A DNA stretch of 29,640 nucleotides from a virus, in the IMG/VR virus record IMGVR_UViG_3300042090_001080, positions 1 through 29,640 of that record. One strand, written 5' to 3'. How positions within the stretch are numbered: position 1 is the stretch's first letter; every line of letters begins with the position of its first letter. The notes under the pieces were generated by a model that worked only from the letters and a program-made list of their open reading frames with translations, searched no databases and had not been told where the DNA came from. A program made the translations under genes and the position numbers. This document shows positions 16,032-29,307 of this stretch, piece by piece.

Positions 16032-17222
16032 TTATGCCGAAGCCAATGTTGAAGTCATTCTGGTAATCCAGTTGTCATTGAGGATACGAGTAGCGAATGG
16101 ATATTTATACCCAACCGTTCCGCGCTGATTCAATGGGTCGGCAGTACCGGAAGCCCCGAGAGGTTTCACGATAAATTCAGCCTCTTTGGCTCCAAGACGA
16201 ACAACGCCGTATGCTTCTTGTCCAAGGACAAAAGAGCTATAGACGTTAGGCGACGCGCCGTTGCTGTAACCGTTGGTGTTCAACAGCCAGCGAACGTTAC
16301 GCGTTGCGCCCCACTCTGCTTCCAGAGCATTCATTGGGTTTGGATAGTTAGCAGCTTGGATAAAGCTGGAAACTGCTTCCAAATCAGACTGCATGTCAAC
16401 CGACATGAAGCCCCAGTAGGAGCTACGTACGGGACTTGTGCCGAATTTATTCTCGCCAGGGAGAGGATTCGTCATCAATCGCGCATTGCCCTGTCTCAAA
16501 GCAACAATCGCAGTTTGGATATCTGCGTCTGTAATCTCAGTCGGCGATTGGCCGTTTAGTCCATGCGAACACGCAATGGTGCTGGCCGTCGACACCATCA
16601 TATCGCGGATAAGCGTATCCAAGGTCAAGCCGAGTTGGAGCGAAAGAACTTTCGTTGCTTCGTTTAAAACTCGATCCTGCACGACATATTGTACCTGATC
16701 CGTTCGAAAAAGGTCTGTTACTTTTATGACCACGTCGCAGTGGCGGAGGGTCTTGTTATTCCCCTCTCCCATGATTTCTCATAGGGCCCGACTATCGCAT
16801 CACCTTTCGGTGTTTTCTCACTTAGTCTGTCACGGTTGAATATAAATTCCGATTATAATCATTCCGCCTTGTTGTCCGTCCGCTTAAGCGGCGAGGAGAT
16901 CCAAGTCAATTAGAGAAAATTTATTTACTGCACCACAACGGTTTTTAATGGTGCAAAACGATCCATACCATTGGACCTGCGCTTTAAAGTCGGTAACCGA
17001 CAGTTGATCGCCTGGAGGCGTTTGCCCATCGGTGAGGGGGACCGACGCAGCTGTAAGAGTACCATATCTTCGGAATACCATCTGGTCGCCCGAATTTAAA
17101 GGGATCTGCCGTTTTTGCGCGAACAAATCGTAGATGAAGTATGGTCTCGCGAGAGCCAGCAACAATCTATCGAAGTATGTTCTCACTTCTGGCGGCAGTT
17201 GTGTTAAACCTGTAATTGCCAT
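16032..17222 (-). CDS. Major capsid protein, N4-gp56 family, split by a group I intron
   Basis: Read as two exons: 17222..16948 and 16704..16032 (minus). Exon 1 gives 91 residues plus two bases; exon 2 supplies the third base. Splicing gives 315 residues and the junction reads SFCTITDQVQYVVQDRVLNE, a run characteristic of N4-gp56 major capsid proteins. N-terminal LPPEVRTYFDRLLLALARPY and the NSGDQMVFRRYGTL stretch also fit the family. Without splicing, the first part ends at a stop inside the intron (16884) and the second part would need an ATG inside the intron (16772). The shell forms with the scaffold encoded just upstream. Family lengths are usually somewhat longer (about 350-400), so this is a short member. 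Confidence 0.9.
16705..16947 (-). ncRNA. Group I self-splicing intron in the major capsid gene
   Basis: 243 nt, minus strand. P1: exon end TGCACCAT pairs fully with intron GTGGTGCA, with the U-G wobble at the splice site. P10: intron CCGTT, just before the guide, pairs with the exon 2 start AACGG. Core: P7 strands GACTA (16823-16827) and TAGTC (16790-16794); a four-pair ACTT/AAGT P3 candidate; P8 CACC-GAAA-GGTG (16801-16812); P9 CCC(T)ATGA-GAAA-TCATGGG (16768-16786); a GGAGGG stretch with a downstream CCCTCC, and a CCAC/GTGG stem near the 3' end. The intron ends in G, as expected. The P4-P6 domain was not folded confidently. No homing endonuclease is present. Splicing gives an uninterrupted capsid frame. 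Confidence 0.9.
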
Positions 17223-19094: not shown

Positions 19095-21161
19095 TTAAGC
19101 TTCGGAAGGCTTAGCAGTTGGCGTAGCTCCAGTTTCTTTCCCTTCCAATTCTTTGATAAAAGCAAGTTTGCTTCTAAGATTCTCAATATCAATGGACTCT
19201 AATTCCTTAATGGCCTTGATCAGATTAAGGGCTCCCGCAGTGCGTTCTTCTTCGGCTCGAGTCATCCGCTCGGCGCTCAGCGCTGCATCCAAGCCCACTT
19301 TGTTGAGCCGTTCCGCCGCCAGCGCGCGATCAGAATCCGCTTTCGCCTCGACCGCGTTTGTGACCGTCGCTTGGTTCTGCATCTGGAGTTGCATTGCTTG
19401 CTGTTGCTGTTGCTGCGCTTGTTCCGCTTGAGCCGCCAATAACTGTTCGAGCTCTTTCTTGCCGTGCAGATTGGAATTCTTAATGATCAGGGAATCGGGG
19501 ATCGTCACGCCAATGGATTTAAGCCCCATTAACTGCACAAACTGATTCTGTTTCTGGGTATCAGTCAAGATGCCTTCCTCAACCGATACGTCATAACGAC
19601 CAAAGGCTTTGGAATAGAACTCGGGCGTCGGCTCTTTCTTCGTGATTAAGCGGATCTTCTCTGGAGTATAGTTCTCTTGTACCAACGCCAGGACTTTCTT
19701 GCCCAATAGGCGTTGGGATTCTCTCAACCCATCGAATATGTCCTGTAGATTGACTAAGCCCGCATCCTGACGCATTTTAGCCAGAGTCCCAGCCGTCTCC
19801 ACTTTGTCATTATCGGTCATGCCAAACAGCTCTTGGTTCACTCCCGCGATCTCCATCATGTCTTTCTCGAATTCTCCTTCGAGTTGGAACATCGAGGCTG
19901 GAATATCGGCTGCCTGTAGGCGCTGAATGTCCGTCATTTGAGCTTCTGGTTTCAGCCAGATTACCTGACCTTGACCCGTTTTATACAAAGAGGAAGGATT
20001 GCTAACTGAGTTTGTCTTTGCAATGAAGCCTGAATTGAGTTGATTATCTAATATATCAACCATTTTCGATCTACGTTTATTTATCTCTGTCTGCGGATCT
20101 CTAACTATCCTAACTAAAGATTGAATCTTCCAAGTATATAGATCGTAAGAAGGCTCAAAAGTACAAAAGAAAGGAACAAAAGGATAATCATTAAGACCTC
20201 CCGGATCAGTTCCATAATATAATAATTCTCCTTCAACTATAATTCCGAGTTCAACGGAGCGAACTGGTTTCTTGATCACTTGGATGTTAGGGAACATCTT
20301 CTGGAATAGGAAGAGACGCTTTTTGTCGCCATCCCACTTCTTCATCTCACCGGTCTCCATGTCAACTAATACGTTTTTAGTTTCCCATTTCGTGCGCCAG
20401 TATTCGTTATAATTCAAAAGCTTCTGCATCCCCCATTGTCTAGCATAGGGCATGTAAGTAAATTTATCGTCTCTACTTCCCCAAGGCAATCGGTCGATCA
20501 CATCTTGCTTTTCAGGGATAAGACTTGTGACCTCAGTTCTCGATAAATACTTTCGCCGAGCAATGAACGAGCAATCAGATAGGTCTTTCTTAGTGAGGAA
20601 TGGGTCCATGATAACCGCGTTCCAGCAATCGTGGTGCAGTCGGATATCTCCTGACACTGGATCAGATCGGTAATCGAGCCACGGCGAAACAAAAGACATC
20701 CCAGTAGTGAGAGCACCTTTAAATGCCTCACTGATGACCTCGTAGCCATCGGCATATTGCATGACATATTGGACGGCATCTGACATAATCTCGGCCGTAA
20801 GCTCAGATGAATCTTCAATAGGGCTGATAATTGTGGATAGTCGGTTCTTGCGCTGATATCCCTGTACCAAATTAATGAGTCGTCGGATCTTATTGTATGT
20901 GAAGGAGGAGCGTCTTTGGTTATTGAGGTAGGAGAGTTCTTCCAAACTCCATTGATTACCAAGATAGTATGAAAGATCCTTATACGCTTCGGCATAGTAG
21001 GTATTCCACAACTGATAGGCGCGCTGGTAGGATTCATTGAAGTCCTGAATTACATCTTGATGGAACTCTAATCGAGTGTCAGAAGCAACTTTTTTCTTAT
21101 ATTCGTTCAAAAAATCTTTAGAATCTGCGGACTTGGAGTAGTCGGACATGGGGCTGGACAT
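19095..21161 (-). CDS. Portal protein, P22-like
   Basis: A 688-residue protein, matching the size of P22-like portals (gp1, about 725). It starts MSSPMSDYSKSADSKDFLNE. Residues 50-110 hold LSYYLGNQWSLEELSYLNNQ and the KIRRLINLVQGYQRKNR stretch that are characteristic of this family. IVRDPQTEINKRRSKM, the long Tyr-containing stem (PFVPFFCTFEPSYDLYTWK) and AGVNQELFGMTDNDKVETA (about 465-480) also match the family layout. The C-terminal 100 residues are helical, with a run of Gln (about 560-585), the barrel region. It docks TerL and forms the DNA gate. It starts 37 nt after promoter copy D. No truncation is seen. Confidence 0.85.
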   Translation of the reverse strand: MSSPMSDYSKSADSKDFLNEYKKKVASDTRLEFHQDVIQDFNESYQRAYQLWNTYYAEAYKDLSYYLGNQWSLEELSYLNNQRRSSFTYNKIRRLINLVQGYQRKNRLSTIISPIEDSSELTAEIMSDAVQYVMQYADGYEVISEAFKGALTTGMSFVSPWLDYRSDPVSGDIRLHHDCWNAVIMDPFLTKKDLSDCSFIARRKYLSRTEVTSLIPEKQDVIDRLPWGSRDDKFTYMPYARQWGMQKLLNYNEYWRTKWETKNVLVDMETGEMKKWDGDKKRLFLFQKMFPNIQVIKKPVRSVELGIIVEGELLYYGTDPGGLNDYPFVPFFCTFEPSYDLYTWKIQSLVRIVRDPQTEINKRRSKMVDILDNQLNSGFIAKTNSVSNPSSLYKTGQGQVIWLKPEAQMTDIQRLQAADIPASMFQLEGEFEKDMMEIAGVNQELFGMTDNDKVETAGTLAKMRQDAGLVNLQDIFDGLRESQRLLGKKVLALVQENYTPEKIRLITKKEPTPEFYSKAFGRYDVSVEEGILTDTQKQNQFVQLMGLKSIGVTIPDSLIIKNSNLHGKKELEQLLAAQAEQAQQQQQQAMQLQMQNQATVTNAVEAKADSDRALAAERLNKVGLDAALSAERMTRAEEERTAGALNLIKAIKELESIDIENLRSKLAFIKELEGKETGATPTAKPSEA

Positions 21162-22429: not shown

Positions 22430-22692
22430 ATCCTCCCCTTCCTTTAGGAAGGGGATTCCTACGGCGTCTTGCAAGTTTTGCAAAATCGCTTCGGTAGGTA
22501 CTTTCGACCCGTGTGGACATTGTCCAGACCTTTCGCCAGGCACTCATGTCGTGAGTATCGCCCGTGGGAACTTGCTTTACGAAATCGCGATATCCTCGCG
22601 CATCGACATAGAAATATGTTAGCATGTGTATGATTTAAAAAAAAAGAAGCACGCTAACCCCGCCCTGAAGGACGGAGTTTGCGCGTGTCCAT
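22430..22692 (-). mobile_element. IS200/IS605-like hairpin remnant
   Basis: A 260-bp stretch with no clear gene. One end has a perfect 8-bp hairpin CCCCTTCC TTTA GGAAGGGG (22435-22454) framed by the GGAATCC and GGATGTC context typical of IS200/IS605-family right ends. The other end has CCCCGCCCTGAAGGACGG (about 22657-22675), also typical of such ends. The interior holds a 67-residue frame (22625 to 22422), MLTYFYVDARGYRDFVKQVP at the start, Arg-rich and ending in the hairpin; I do not recognise it as transposase. No TnpA or TnpB domain is visible. It is a possible internally deleted relic or a small non-autonomous element. Confidence 0.4.
22637..22690 (-). terminator. Terminator-like hairpin after the Gly-rich gene
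   Basis: In minus-strand RNA, an AACUCCGUCC / GGGCGGGGUU stem (10 pairs, two G-U) with a UUCA loop, extended by an outer CACGC/GCGUG stem, then four bases and nine U. Located 2 bp after the Gly-rich gene stop at 22693. It coincides with the IS-like end at this spot, so it may be an element end that now terminates the transcript. Confidence 0.5.
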
Positions 22693-22950
22693 TTAATCAT
22701 TTCCGAAAGTTCTACAAAAGCCGTCGCCATAGCCGTCGCCGTCGCCGGTGCCATAGCCGTTGCCGGTGCCGGTGCCGTCGCCGGTGCCATAGCCGTAGAC
22801 GTAGCCGTAGACGTAGCCGTAGCCGGCGCCATAGCCGTCGCCGGTGCCGTCGCCGTCGCCGTCGCCGGTGCCGTCGCCGTCGCCGTCGCCGGTGCCGTCG
22901 CCGTCGCCGTAGCCGGTGCCGAGAATACCTTCAATTTCGATTACTTCCAT
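22693..22950 (-). CDS. Gly/Asp/Tyr dipeptide-repeat protein
   Basis: An 85-residue protein. MEVIEIEGILGTGYGDGD is followed by a run of about 33 dipeptides of Gly with Asp, Thr, Tyr, Val, Ala or Asn, then FCRTFGND. The repeat is encoded by a 6-nt tandem unit. Its ATG overlaps the stop of the upstream 80-residue gene, and a terminator-like hairpin follows. Small phage proteins of this type with a short hydrophobic start and Gly-rich tail occur in other tailed phages, with unknown function. A flexible, metal-binding or matrix role is possible; nothing in the sequence decides it. Confidence 0.55.
   Translation of the reverse strand: MEVIEIEGILGTGYGDGDGTGDGDGDGTGDGDGDGTGDGYGAGYGYVYGYVYGYGTGDGTGTGNGYGTGDGDGYGDGFCRTFGND
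22720..22920. repeat. Hexanucleotide tandem repeat
   Basis: About 200 bp of imperfect 6-nt units, mainly GCCGTC, GCCGGT, GCCATA and GCCGTA on the plus strand. Units are multiples of three, so changes in copy number do not shift the frame of the Gly-rich gene. All three minus-strand frames stay open here. The units vary between copies, so it is not a pure slippage tract. Confidence 0.85.
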
Positions 22951-25164: not shown

Positions 25165-25237
25165 TAGCGCCTCCCGGATTTGAACCGGGGCAACACAGGT
25201 TATGAGACTGCTGCTCTAACCACTGAGCTAAGGCGCT
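25165..25237 (-). tRNA. tRNA with anticodon CAU (Met or Ile2)
   Basis: 73 nt. Minus-strand acceptor AGCGCCT pairs with AGGCGCT. D arm GCTC AGTGGTTA GAGC, T arm CCCGG TTCAAAT CCGGG, anticodon loop CTCATAA giving CAT. The anticodon stem GCAGT/CCTGT has one mismatch next to the loop. The D arm resembles bacterial tRNA-Ile2, but the D arm of elongator tRNA-Met is similar, so both remain possible. Discriminator A. CCA is not encoded. The first ten bases lie in the 3' end of the co-chaperonin gene, including its TAG stop. Confidence 0.85.
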
Positions 25238-25545
25238 TCATTTCCTAAATCCATAGAGAAAGCCAGGATCTCGCTAAAGTCCAGAGACACAAGCTCTTGT
25301 CCCGCGTATTCCACCAACAATCCCGCATACTTGCGCGTAAACACGTAGCCTCCGATCGAAATTTCTCCGCCATTTTCACAAGTGTCCGCTCCGTAAGACA
25401 GCACTTGGCCGATCTGGTACTCTTTCTTCTCGTCCGGAACAATCAGGAGGCCTTTTTTCTTCTCGAATTCCACCAATTTCACTAAAACTCGGTTTCCAAC
25501 TGCACTAATCAAGGAAATCTCCGTATTGAATTTTTCTTTCATCAT
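25228..25545 (-). CDS. GroES-like co-chaperonin
   Basis: A 105-residue protein. The sequence from residue 14 on (VGNRVLVKLVEFEKKKGLLI then VPDEKKEYQIGQVLSYGADT) matches the N-terminal GroES strands and base loop. The hinge and last strands (YVFTRKYAGLLVEYAGQELV then LDFSEILAFSMD) match the family ending, in which xxDILA is conserved. The mobile loop (VEFEKKKGLLIVP) is short. The start is one of the two adjacent ATGs at 25545 and 25542, inside the end of the 93-residue gene; an upstream ATG would add 17 Arg/Cys-rich residues of that gene's overlap. By analogy with T4 gp31 it probably modifies host GroEL for capsid folding. Confidence 0.7.
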   Translation of the reverse strand: MMKEKFNTEISLISAVGNRVLVKLVEFEKKKGLLIVPDEKKEYQIGQVLSYGADTCENGGEISIGGYVFTRKYAGLLVEYAGQELVSLDFSEILAFSMDLGNEAP

Positions 25546-25795: not shown

Positions 25796-27316
25796 CTATT
25801 CAAATAAGGGATGATGTTTATTGTATAACCGCTCTGCCTCAGCATCTGTAATATCACTCTTTTGTCCGTCCACATGCGTCTGAATGGCCATACAGGTGTA
25901 GCGAAAAGCGTCCGCGCCGTGGCTGTATTGGTCGTGAATGGGCTTATTTTTAAAGATTTGATAATTTACGTCAAACTCTTTTCGGTAGTTCTCCAAGCAC
26001 TTAATCAGCCGCGAACACCGCTCCTCATCAATCCAAACGCGCGGGAAGACACTTCGGACACACTCGATACCGTCTTCCAGTTTAGTTCTAAGAGTCGGTA
26101 GTGTGATAAGAGGAATGCCAAGCCGGGAGGCGACTTCTTTTGTTGAGAGCCCCACTGAAAATGCGTGAGATTCAATATCATGGGGGCCGTAAAATTTGTC
26201 ATACAAGTAGGGTTTGGACTTAATGATGGAAGCATAGAAAGCGAAAGCCTCTCCCGAATTTTCATAGTAGTCGATAATATGCACTTCTTGCCCGATAATC
26301 TGGAAGAACACAAGCGCCGTGGCGTCTCCGTATCCGATGTCAAATGCGACTGAAACAAGCGATCCTCGTTCCCAAGGAATATTTCCGAAGCGGCCTTCAA
26401 AGCGAGCTTCTCTAATCCATTTGGCATAGTAACTCCCGTCTATAGCTGATTCGAACGACTCATCGGGGGTAGATGGGTACTCCCGCTTCATGTCGTCCTT
26501 CTGGGTCAATAATTTCTTATAATACCAGCTCTTTTGTCCAGAAGAAAGTTTGATGCCCTTCTCTTCTAGCGTCTTGAAGTAGTCCTGAATCTCTTTGGGA
26601 ATAACGATGCGTTCGTCTAGAATGTAGTCCGGACAATCATACCAGGAATAAAAATGAAACTTGTAGTCTAGAGAAGTCAAAGCCTTCGCGGATTCCTTCA
26701 TCGCTTCGGCCTGCTTGCAAAGGTCATAGAAGTGGCCTTCTTTCCCCTCGGCAGTAGACTCGATGAACACATATTGCTTCGCTCCCAGTGTATTCAAGGA
26801 TCCAGTCACAATTTCGCGACTCTTCTCAGGCCAGTGCGCACAGATCTTTCCGAACTCGGAGACATGCAAGTACTGGAGCGTAGTTCCCCTCATGCTGGTG
26901 CCGACCCGCACGGAGGAGTGGTTGCTGAACACGAGCTCCCGAGCGGAATCGACAGTGGCCGTCCGCAACATTTTAAGAGCTTCGGGCAACTTGTCATATG
27001 CGAACTTGATACGTTTGAACATCAACTCAGCGTCCTCTCGCGTATGGGCAATAATCCCAGCTGCTATATTCGGCTTAAAAAGGCACGTATCGAGGAACAA
27101 CATGCACACGAAAGTGCTGATGCCCAGCTGGCGCGCCTTGAGGATTATGTTCGAGTACCACATTGTCGAATAAAGCTGCTCTTGAGCCCAGTTGAACTTA
27201 AACGTCCTCGGCACTCCCTGCTTATCAATGATCTGATAGAGATTGTTTAGCCGCCACCGCTGAGAAGACAGATTCTTCTCCAGCAACGCCATTTTATCTT
27301 GCTCAGCCTTAGACAT
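25796..27316 (-). CDS. terL: Terminase large subunit
   Basis: A 506-residue TerL. The ATPase domain has the Walker A-like KARQLGIST (60-68), a Walker B LQYLHVSEF (147-155) with catalytic Glu, and a C-motif ESTAEG (186-191). The conserved EYPSTPDESFESA stretch (279-291) follows, then the RNase H-like nuclease domain begins at VAFDIGYGDAT (Asp326), with GPHDIE and DAFRY as further acidic sites. It translocates DNA through the portal into the prohead and cuts concatemers. A separate small subunit is not identified; the 95-residue gene upstream is one candidate. The 48-residue membrane gene stops just before the TerL ATG. Confidence 0.9.
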   Translation of the reverse strand: MSKAEQDKMALLEKNLSSQRWRLNNLYQIIDKQGVPRTFKFNWAQEQLYSTMWYSNIILKARQLGISTFVCMLFLDTCLFKPNIAAGIIAHTREDAELMFKRIKFAYDKLPEALKMLRTATVDSARELVFSNHSSVRVGTSMRGTTLQYLHVSEFGKICAHWPEKSREIVTGSLNTLGAKQYVFIESTAEGKEGHFYDLCKQAEAMKESAKALTSLDYKFHFYSWYDCPDYILDERIVIPKEIQDYFKTLEEKGIKLSSGQKSWYYKKLLTQKDDMKREYPSTPDESFESAIDGSYYAKWIREARFEGRFGNIPWERGSLVSVAFDIGYGDATALVFFQIIGQEVHIIDYYENSGEAFAFYASIIKSKPYLYDKFYGPHDIESHAFSVGLSTKEVASRLGIPLITLPTLRTKLEDGIECVRSVFPRVWIDEERCSRLIKCLENYRKEFDVNYQIFKNKPIHDQYSHGADAFRYTCMAIQTHVDGQKSDITDAEAERLYNKHHPLFE

Positions 27317-27850: not shown

Positions 27851-28009
27851 ATGGACAAAACAAGAATCATCCTGTGTCTTATATCCGCAGCACTGAGCGC
27901 CTTATGGGCATTGTCTGTAGATGGTCTCTGGAAGACCTTATGCGGTTGCCTCATCATAGGGGCAGTGGTGTCGCTCTTTCACTTTTATCTACGCACGAGT
28001 GGCAAATGA
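27851..28009 (+). CDS. Small two-helix membrane protein
   Basis: A 52-residue protein, MDKTRIILCLISAALSALWA then LSVDGLWKTLCGCLIIGAVV, with two membrane segments and a short basic tail. AAGGCG lies upstream. Its stop overlaps an ATG of the methyltransferase frame at 28006 (ATGA), so the two may be coupled. No family can be named. Confidence 0.5.
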   Translation: MDKTRIILCLISAALSALWALSVDGLWKTLCGCLIIGAVVSLFHFYLRTSGK

Positions 28010-28050
28010 GCGCACTTATTGAAAGTTTCGGCGATGGAGGACCCATCGAA

Positions 28051-29307
28051 ATGAATCAAATTCTTCTTGGAGATTGTCTCACTGTCTTGGATAAATTAGA
28101 GCTGAATACTGTTGATTTGGTCTATCTTGATCCTCCATTTTTTACTCAGAGAGAGCAACGACTCGTTACTCGTGATGGATTAAAAGAATATTCCTTTGTT
28201 GATAGCTGGAATAACATTACTGAATATAGAGAATATATCAAACTGCGCATTAAAAAATGCAGACAAGCGTTACGTGATACAGGTAGTATTTTTCTTCATT
28301 GCGATCGATCAGCATCTCATCATTTACGCTTAGTGTTGGATGAGGTTTTTGGAGCAGAAAATTTTCAAAGCGAAATTATCTGGTCTTATCGTCGTTGGTC
28401 AAATGCAAAAAAAGGTTTATTAAATACTCACCAAGTTATTTTTTTCTATAGCAAAACTAATAACTTCAAGTTCAATCAGATGTATGATGATTATTCTCCC
28501 ACAACAAATATTGACCAAATTCTTCAAGAAAGGGTTCGCGATGAACGAGGAAAGGCAGCTTATAAGACGGATGAAAATGGAAATAACGTTCTAGTCAAAG
28601 ATAAAAAAGGTGTCCCTCTTTCAGATGTTTGGCAAATTCCTTATCTTAATCCAAAGGCTACTGAAAGAGTCGGTTATCCTACTCAAAAGCCGATTCATTT
28701 ATTAGAGAGAATTATTTTATTAGTCACAAATGAGGGGGATACGGTACTTGATCCGTTTTGTGGAAGCGGAACTACTCTTGTAGCTTCTAAGCTTCTTAAT
28801 CGTAGCTATATCGGAATTGATCAACAAAATGATGCTGTTGAACTTGCAAACCAACGGATAGCAAATCCAGTAAAAACTGAATCTGCTCTTCTGAAAAATG
28901 GATTAGATTCGTATAAGAACCAGGATAAAGAAACTTCTAATATATTAAGAGAAATTGGAGCTGTAATAGTTCAGAGGAATAAAGGTATCGATGGTTTTGT
29001 TAAGACTTCTAGCGGACTTATCCCCATTAAAATAAGAAAGATGGGAGAAAGTTTTGAAGAAGCAAAAATGCACTTAATAAGATCGAGCTTGAAAAATAAT
29101 TACCCAAGAAAAATTCTATTGTTGCTCGATGACGTTATAGACGAACCAAGGCTTTTCGACATGTCAGAAAAAGATGTCATTGACGAGAGTATATTAATCT
29201 GTAGGGATATAGTTCAGTTAACGGAAGCTATCGGGTTATTAGAAAGAGAAAAGATCCGGCATATTACGGATGTGGGGAGAAGAAAAAATCCGAAGAGGTT
29301 TGTCTAA
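28051..29307 (+). CDS. DNA methyltransferase (N6-adenine or N4-cytosine, beta class)
   Basis: 418 residues from ATG 28051, chosen because GGAGG lies 10 nt upstream and MNQILLGDCLTVLDKL is a typical start; an in-frame ATG at 28006 overlaps the previous stop. Motif IV is DPPF (27-30), a target-recognition part follows, then TQKPIHLLERI (about 210) and motif I DPFCGSGTTLVAS (about 233-245). The order IV before I makes it beta class. From about 300 on there is an extra domain (IGAVIVQRNKGIDGFVKTSS then IPIKIRKMG), similar in layout to PD-(D/E)xK nuclease cores such as Mrr, but with KIRK where (E/Q)xK is expected. The gene is AT-rich and lies opposite to its neighbours. Confidence 0.8.
   Translation: MNQILLGDCLTVLDKLELNTVDLVYLDPPFFTQREQRLVTRDGLKEYSFVDSWNNITEYREYIKLRIKKCRQALRDTGSIFLHCDRSASHHLRLVLDEVFGAENFQSEIIWSYRRWSNAKKGLLNTHQVIFFYSKTNNFKFNQMYDDYSPTTNIDQILQERVRDERGKAAYKTDENGNNVLVKDKKGVPLSDVWQIPYLNPKATERVGYPTQKPIHLLERIILLVTNEGDTVLDPFCGSGTTLVASKLLNRSYIGIDQQNDAVELANQRIANPVKTESALLKNGLDSYKNQDKETSNILREIGAVIVQRNKGIDGFVKTSSGLIPIKIRKMGESFEEAKMHLIRSSLKNNYPRKILLLLDDVIDEPRLFDMSEKDVIDESILICRDIVQLTEAIGLLEREKIRHITDVGRRKNPKRFV

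Follow-up and report, generated by a model that had tools for sequence, protein, structure and literature searches.

The window, meaning the whole 29,640-nucleotide stretch of viral DNA analysed here, carries downstream of its terminase gene a reading frame for what is, judged by its sequence, a divergent member of the Cpn10 (GroES) family. The best-supported reading of this gene, and one we consider likely, is that its product serves as a phage lid on the host GroEL during the folding of virion proteins. The reading is based on the family, the predicted fold, the hydrophobic motif of the mobile loop, the position on the terminase side, the finding of no GroEL in nine records and the trimmed roof of the protein. 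In such a scheme, the divergent Cpn10 would be made together with the packaging and structural gene products, its mobile loop would bind host GroEL, and the phage protein would stand in for the host lid, or supplement it, during the folding of virion proteins; we infer the formation of a heptamer, the binding to host GroEL, the timing and the client proteins. Phage-encoded lids for GroEL are already known, and the window gene adds another, trimmed one, in an uncultured phage with a short genome. Table 1 lists the features discussed.

Table 1. Features of the window (all on the minus strand) and the basis on which each was drawn.
Feature	Coordinates	Strand	Basis or remark
GroES/Cpn10-like co-chaperonin, probable CDS	25228..25512	-	TTG start, 94 aa; GGAG 6 nt upstream; length of relatives
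Mobile-loop region, 22 residues, hydrophobic triplet LLI (E. coli GroES: IVL)	25411..25476	-	alignment; low pLDDT at residues 28-40
Shortened roof hairpin, 12 residues vs 17 in E. coli GroES	25354..25389	-	alignment
tRNA-Met (CAT)	25165..25237	-	5' end overlaps last 10 nt of GroES frame
Small upstream ORF, 93 aa	25505..25786	-	adjoins GroES in window-clade phages
Terminase large subunit	25796..27316	-	PF03354 20.8 bits (just under cut-off 23.7); phrog_2472, phrog_2
Major capsid protein gene, N4-gp56 family	16032..17222	-	exon 1 16948-17222, exon 2 16032-16704; spliced product 315 aa
Group I-type intron, 243 nt, in capsid gene	16705..16947	-	P1, P10, P7, P8 pairings

The product of the open frame 25228-25545 (minus strand) scores 39.4 bits against Pfam PF00166 (cut-off 21.1; E 6.1e-10), and the match covers positions 2-91 of the 93 in the profile, which amounts to the whole domain. 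PHROG 3188, 'co-chaperonin GroES', matches it at E 2.6e-8, and a sequence search of the PDB retrieves Thermus Cpn10 at E 5.3e-8. Together with the predicted fold, these matches bear out the sequence-only reading of the gene as a phage-encoded GroES-like co-chaperonin. Against the 13 NCBIfam GroES models listed, the protein falls below every cut-off (best 36.4 bits vs 99), and since these scores lie so far under the cut-offs, it is best classed as a divergent Cpn10 and not as a standard bacterial GroES. No match at E 0.01 was returned by tblastn when the protein was compared with 50,697 phage records, and a profile search of viral contigs with a five-sequence alignment yielded six loci, all on contigs already in the set. 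The window clade comprises five distinct GroES-like proteins, all of them open frames; the other four are 53-60% identical to the window protein, and 30 alignment columns are invariant across the five. The protein encoded by G001 is identical to that of the window.

The span first proposed for the gene, 25228-25545, proved correct as an open frame but is 33 nt too long as a coding sequence, since translation probably begins at TTG 25512 rather than at ATG 25545, from which the frame would encode 105 aa. In the start region, CGGAGATTTCCTTGATTAG, a GGAG motif stands 6 nt before TTG 25512. A length of 94 aa is also that of the GroES-like proteins of G003, G004, G005 and G006, and in a larger alignment their starts align with the TTG. 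The gene does lie downstream of the terminase, as had been stated, with one small ORF between it and the large subunit. The stop codon of this ORF (25505-25507) overlaps the GroES start, and in G004 there is likewise a 4-nt overlap, which suggests that the two genes may be translationally coupled. Pfam and PHROG place the small ORF in no family with confidence; a weak match to it persists in G062 and G113, where GroES was not found. At the other end of the gene, the stop codon of the GroES frame is supplied by the tRNA-Met gene, and the C-terminus of the protein is thereby set by the tRNA. In the seven relatives searched, no tRNA was found next to GroES (G002-G006) or where it would stand (G062 and G113), and two tRNAs occur elsewhere.

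Further out, a DNA N6/N4 methyltransferase gene (window 27874-29304, plus strand; PF01555, 186.5 bits) lies upstream of the terminase on the opposite strand. Two overlapping frames at 22635-22950 (minus strand), very low in complexity and rich in Gly-Asp and in Ala-Thr, apparently derive from one short repeat. In G004, an RtcB-like gene follows GroES at a distance of 1.7 kb downstream (L003 12000-13163, plus strand), the product of which is presumably an RtcB-like RNA ligase, and near it is a metallophosphoesterase-like gene that is common to G004 and the window.

A first structural model built with five sequences reached a pLDDT of 72.2 and a pTM of 0.66, with residues 28-40, in the mobile loop, below a pLDDT of 50; a second model built with 17 sequences reached 80.9 and 0.71. 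Foldseek ranks Thermus Cpn10 (1wnr) first among the matches to the first model (E 7.5e-6) and T4 gp31 (1g31) at position 24 (E 9.4e-4). For the second model, VIA-align gives Z 10.9 with Thermus Cpn10 1wnr_G (2.1 A, 80 residues), Z 9.4 with gp31 2cgt_O (1.9 A, 71 residues) and Z 9.1 with gp31 1g31_A (3.8 A, 88 residues), and the first row that is not a co-chaperonin appears at Z 7.0. The Cpn10 beta-barrel fold of the window protein stands as a prediction. The GroES strand order had been noticed in the letters; the predicted models show the strands expected of the fold, and fold prediction against GroES and gp31 returned co-chaperonins as the best structural matches, with the mobile loop present.

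Lengths of the mobile loop and roof hairpin were counted in a 24-sequence alignment in which G006 (equal to G005), G098 (equal to G100) and G110 (equal to G111) have no separate rows and gp31 is not part of the count. Two of the bacterial references, Acinetobacter and Enterococcus, were taken from entries that had been deposited as phages; the gene from Acinetobacter lies beside groL. The phage proteins fall into clades I (window, G002-G006), II (G081, G086, G089, G093, G099, G100, G102, G111 and repeats) and III (G056, G057), to which IV (G080, G087) is added as a label only, these two not grouping in the protein tree. A loop region of 24 residues is common to E. coli, Acinetobacter, Enterococcus, clade III and four proteins from other phages; the window has 22 residues there, clade I 22-23, clade II 21-22 and IV 20. 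The window loop had been called short and unusual: it is indeed 2 residues shorter than that of E. coli GroES (22 vs 24), but it is not truncated. The hydrophobic triplet of the GroES mobile loop is the part that binds GroEL. In the alignment, its second and third residues are hydrophobic in 17/17 phage proteins and its first in 12/17.

The roof hairpin has 17 residues in E. coli and is shortened by 5 in the window. The remaining four proteins of clade I have roofs of 6-16 residues (6 in G002), each of the eight in clade II has one of 9, and IV has 8-9, with the full 17 in III. Among the proteins of other phages, it has 10 residues in the Microcystis phage, 8 in the Bacteroides phage, 9 in Serratia BF and 17 in Vibrio phage D93. 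A comparison with the Pfam profile, which measures total length and not the roof alone, puts Bacillota GroES, a control of one phylum, at -1 to +2 residues with 117 rows at 0 (150 rows listed, 149 genomes). The phage GroES-like rows lie at -3 to -14 in 19/19, the window at -7; these 19 leave out G001, whose protein equals that of the window, as well as G080, a partial match below the cut-off, and are not all independent, as G006 repeats G005, G098 repeats G100 and G110 repeats G111. The G056 and G057 proteins are 3 residues short despite a full loop and roof, and their deficit falls elsewhere. Shortening of the roof hairpin is common to many proteins of this phage group and to some unrelated phages, and it is the broader lead from this work. 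Among the matches listed in a literature search of titles and abstracts, a source that does not extend to most subscription journals, there is no paper on roof trimming in phage co-chaperonins.

The nearest known relatives are bacterial GroES/Cpn10 proteins, with Thermus 1wnr and 4v4o closest, and the likeness extends to the whole-domain match, the predicted barrel, the hydrophobic loop triplet and the structural Z of 10.9. Thermus Cpn10 is 35-36% identical to the window protein in structural alignment; a further difference from the bacterial system is that the window gene is encoded without GroEL. T4 gp31 (1g31, 2cgt) is 17-22% identical by the same kind of alignment and resembles the window protein as a phage co-chaperonin with a reduced roof hairpin and structural Z of 9.1-9.4. 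According to the available text of PMC6318259, the roof loops of gp31 are absent, its cage is enlarged by 8%, an increase presumed to make room for the 56-kDa gp23, and its mobile loop has 22 residues vs 16 in GroES by that paper's count. Set against that account, the window roof is shortened to 12 residues and not absent, and a shorter loop accompanies a capsid of 34.6 kDa here, whereas a longer loop accompanies a client of ~56 kDa there.

Other phages with a GroES gene can be likened to the window by description. In the available text of PMC9599517, the co-chaperonin GroES belongs to a core set of 13 genes in pelagiphage podoviruses of the HTVC023P type; these are marine SAR11 phages in which GroES is core, whereas in the window group the gene was not found in many records. 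The Pseudoalteromonas phage B8b encodes a GroES, as the window does, but is a siphovirus, and the available text of PMC4294664 adds that GroES had already been detected in myoviruses and podoviruses. As far as these two sources were available, they contradict the earlier remark that such genes are rare in podovirus-like phages. By capsid, the Pagevirus group (Bacillus phage Page and kin) is among the nearest named phages at about 27% identity, with genomes of about 40 kb and a podovirus-type head-tail joining protein. Only gene names were compared for phage Page, and no GroES appears among those annotated, many of which are 'hypothetical'.

The place of the gene in the genome was read across 35 records and the window. 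In 17/17 GroES-bearing genomes among them it lies 0.2-2.9 kb from the TerL match and on the portal-gene strand, and in 16/17 it is on the TerL strand, G086 being the exception; G076 gave no terminase match. Clade I, G080 and G087 have GroES downstream of TerL, whereas III and the analysed genomes of clade II have it upstream, G086 being unclear on account of its strand. A search with PF00118 found no GroEL in 9/9 records (the window and G001-G008), and the 14/14 control genomes were positive. Because neither the window nor the eight relatives show a GroEL, the window lid most likely caps that of the host. A capsid pattern search of genome contigs for the host gave 17 matches, none of them a relative.

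The GroES protein tree supports clade I firmly (99/96). Clades I and II, G080 and G087 stand apart from the sequences of bacteria, clade III and other phages at 89/88, on long branches and not strongly. They may go back to a single old phage GroES lineage, with clade III captured later. A bolder proposal, which we offer tentatively and regard as rather doubtful, is that clades I and II and the two lone sequences are an old Cpn10 lineage of their own, distinct from host GroES, in which roof and loop have been trimmed repeatedly, with phages repeatedly selecting open-topped lids for GroEL. The case for repetition comes from the roof loss in T4 gp31 and the short roofs in the Microcystis, Bacteroides and Serratia BF phages. 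If it were true, part of a virion protein may protrude through the open-topped lid, instead of the cage simply being enlarged.

The sequence-only reading had proposed a partnership between the co-chaperonin and the capsid, and the distribution of the gene bears directly on it. Among terminase relatives, a Cpn10 match above the cut-off occurs in 6/50 records searched (80 loci kept), G001 among them. Among capsid relatives, taken as the best 80 of 111 confirmed loci, it occurs in 10/50 and 3/24 records; an eleventh match in the 50, that of G080, has E 1.7e-5 and is below the cut-off. When a phage-protein profile was applied to whole records of the capsid type of at least 34 kb, a GroES-like gene was seen in 16/36 and not in 20/36, with the reservation that records may be incomplete. 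G117 belongs to this 36-record count only, and the neighbourhood and tree analyses cover the remaining 35 records and the window. For the G-records, the ORF tables were compiled from each genome in two pieces divided at base 20000 and reach as far as base 40000. On the capsid tree, 7/33 inner branches of which are well supported, the fewest changes in presence of the gene are 10. A supported set of nine on this tree has the gene in six (window, G002-G006) and not found in three (G062, G073, G113). In G062 and G113, no GroES lies between its usual neighbours, both of which are present (the upstream ORF, 31% and 33% identical, and the next gene); their terminases are 69% and 64% identical to that of the window, and in the C-terminal part their capsids share 94% and 95% identity with its capsid. 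No GroES-like gene was seen in G007 either, a record of 18 kb whose terminase is 65% identical. Conversely, the full-roof canonical GroES of G056 and G057 accompanies a capsid that is 90-91% identical. A strict capsid partnership was rejected as a rule on the 20/36 records and the at least 10 presence changes, and an obligate tie to the capsid type is not upheld. Rather than being a partner that this type of capsid requires, the GroES lid appears to be a useful accessory, gained and lost within the phage group. Since the gene was not found in G062, G073 and G113, which belong to the capsid group of the window, any function of GroES would be dispensable in some hosts. Two points tell against the accessory reading, namely that virus records may be incomplete and that G002-G006 all carry the gene.

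The same evidence serves to weigh the alternatives to a general lid. The protein could be a gp31-like lid dedicated to the capsid, enlarging the cage so that the capsid subunit can fold. Its location beside the terminase, the reduced roof hairpin (gp31 being without roof loops in the available text of PMC6318259), the good structural match to gp31 and the presence of the gene in 6/9 records of the window's capsid clade (window, G002-G006) would all fit. A dedicated lid is nonetheless unlikely, given that the mobile loop is shortened and not lengthened, that the capsid is only 34.6 kDa, that 20/36 long records of the same capsid type have no detected gene, that the capsid tree (7/33 inner branches well supported) demands at least 10 presence changes, and that a full-roof GroES (G056, G057) occurs with a capsid 90-91% identical. 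The cage enlargement of the gp31 type that had been suggested by analogy is accordingly not borne out: the loop is 2 residues shorter, the capsid is 34.6 kDa and the shortened roof is the one gp31-like trait. Loop lengthening in the style of gp31 was itself rejected, as the window has 22 residues vs 24 in E. coli GroES and the gp31 loop is longer than that of GroES.

A takeover function is also conceivable, in which the phage protein displaces host GroES as a competitor and slows or redirects host folding without helping phage proteins. A lid with trimmed loop and roof could bind and yet work differently, and a gene that comes and goes in the group would suit such a role. We think this quite improbable, because the terminase-side position on the portal strand fits late morphogenesis better and because gp31, by contrast, replaces GroES in vivo in the available text of PMC6318259. 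Less credible still is a captured host gene that is decaying and has no present function, for which one could cite the 3 to 14 residues missing relative to the Pfam profile in 19/19 phage rows counted, the frequent absence of the gene and the window frame that now ends inside a tRNA gene. An open frame with 30 invariant columns in the five window-clade proteins and an upstream ORF that overlaps the GroES start in the window and in G004 make decay very unlikely. The general lid on host GroEL is the reading that we prefer. A phage GroES should not be read by default as a capsid-specific equivalent of gp31. The group also offers a natural series of lids, with a full, half or nearly missing roof, and of phages with and without the gene, set against closely related capsids, and this series allows one to ask what purpose the roof and loop of a co-chaperonin serve.

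Turning to the capsid gene, it had been described as a short member of the N4-gp56 family. The family name stands, in that the uninterrupted capsid of L093 matches TIGR04387 (N4-gp56) with 200.4 bits over positions 3-321 of 324. The shortness does not, and a short capsid was rejected: ORFs 16884-17222 and 16032-16772 match the head-protein profile phrog_1357 consecutively, at positions 22-120 and 120-345, and are parts of one full 315-aa protein split by an intron of 243 nt. Excision of 16705-16947 gives a product of 315 aa and 34.6 kDa, with 301/315 residues identical to the capsid of L093, and in L093, L094 and L095 the capsid is a single uninterrupted 315-aa frame. The insert is preceded by T and ends in G, and it can form an 8-bp pairing with exon 1 (P1) that places a U.G pair at the splice site, as well as a 5-bp pairing with exon 2 (P10). 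When the first 40 nt of the insert were shuffled 200000 times, P1 arose in 11 shuffles and P1 with P10 in 0. Motifs like P7 and P8 are also present, and these we take to be group I intron elements. Rfam gave no group I match over the window at the gathering score, nor over 16600-17200 at E up to 5. At 243 nt, the intron is too short for an endonuclease gene.

Among the best 80 of 111 confirmed loci, the capsid gene is a hot spot of interruption, with 17/80 split (L137, L140, L161, L162, L168-L173, L175, L177-L179, L181, L182 and L184) and 63/80 uninterrupted. L173 is a near-identical twin record of the window, and the group I pairings were examined in the insert of the window alone. With a gene so often interrupted, the length of the capsid in such metagenomic phages can be misread. 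The splits fall after residues of about 56, 87, 92 (the site in the window), 222 with 256, and 287, and the capsid genes of L171, L172, L177 and L184 apparently hold two inserts each.
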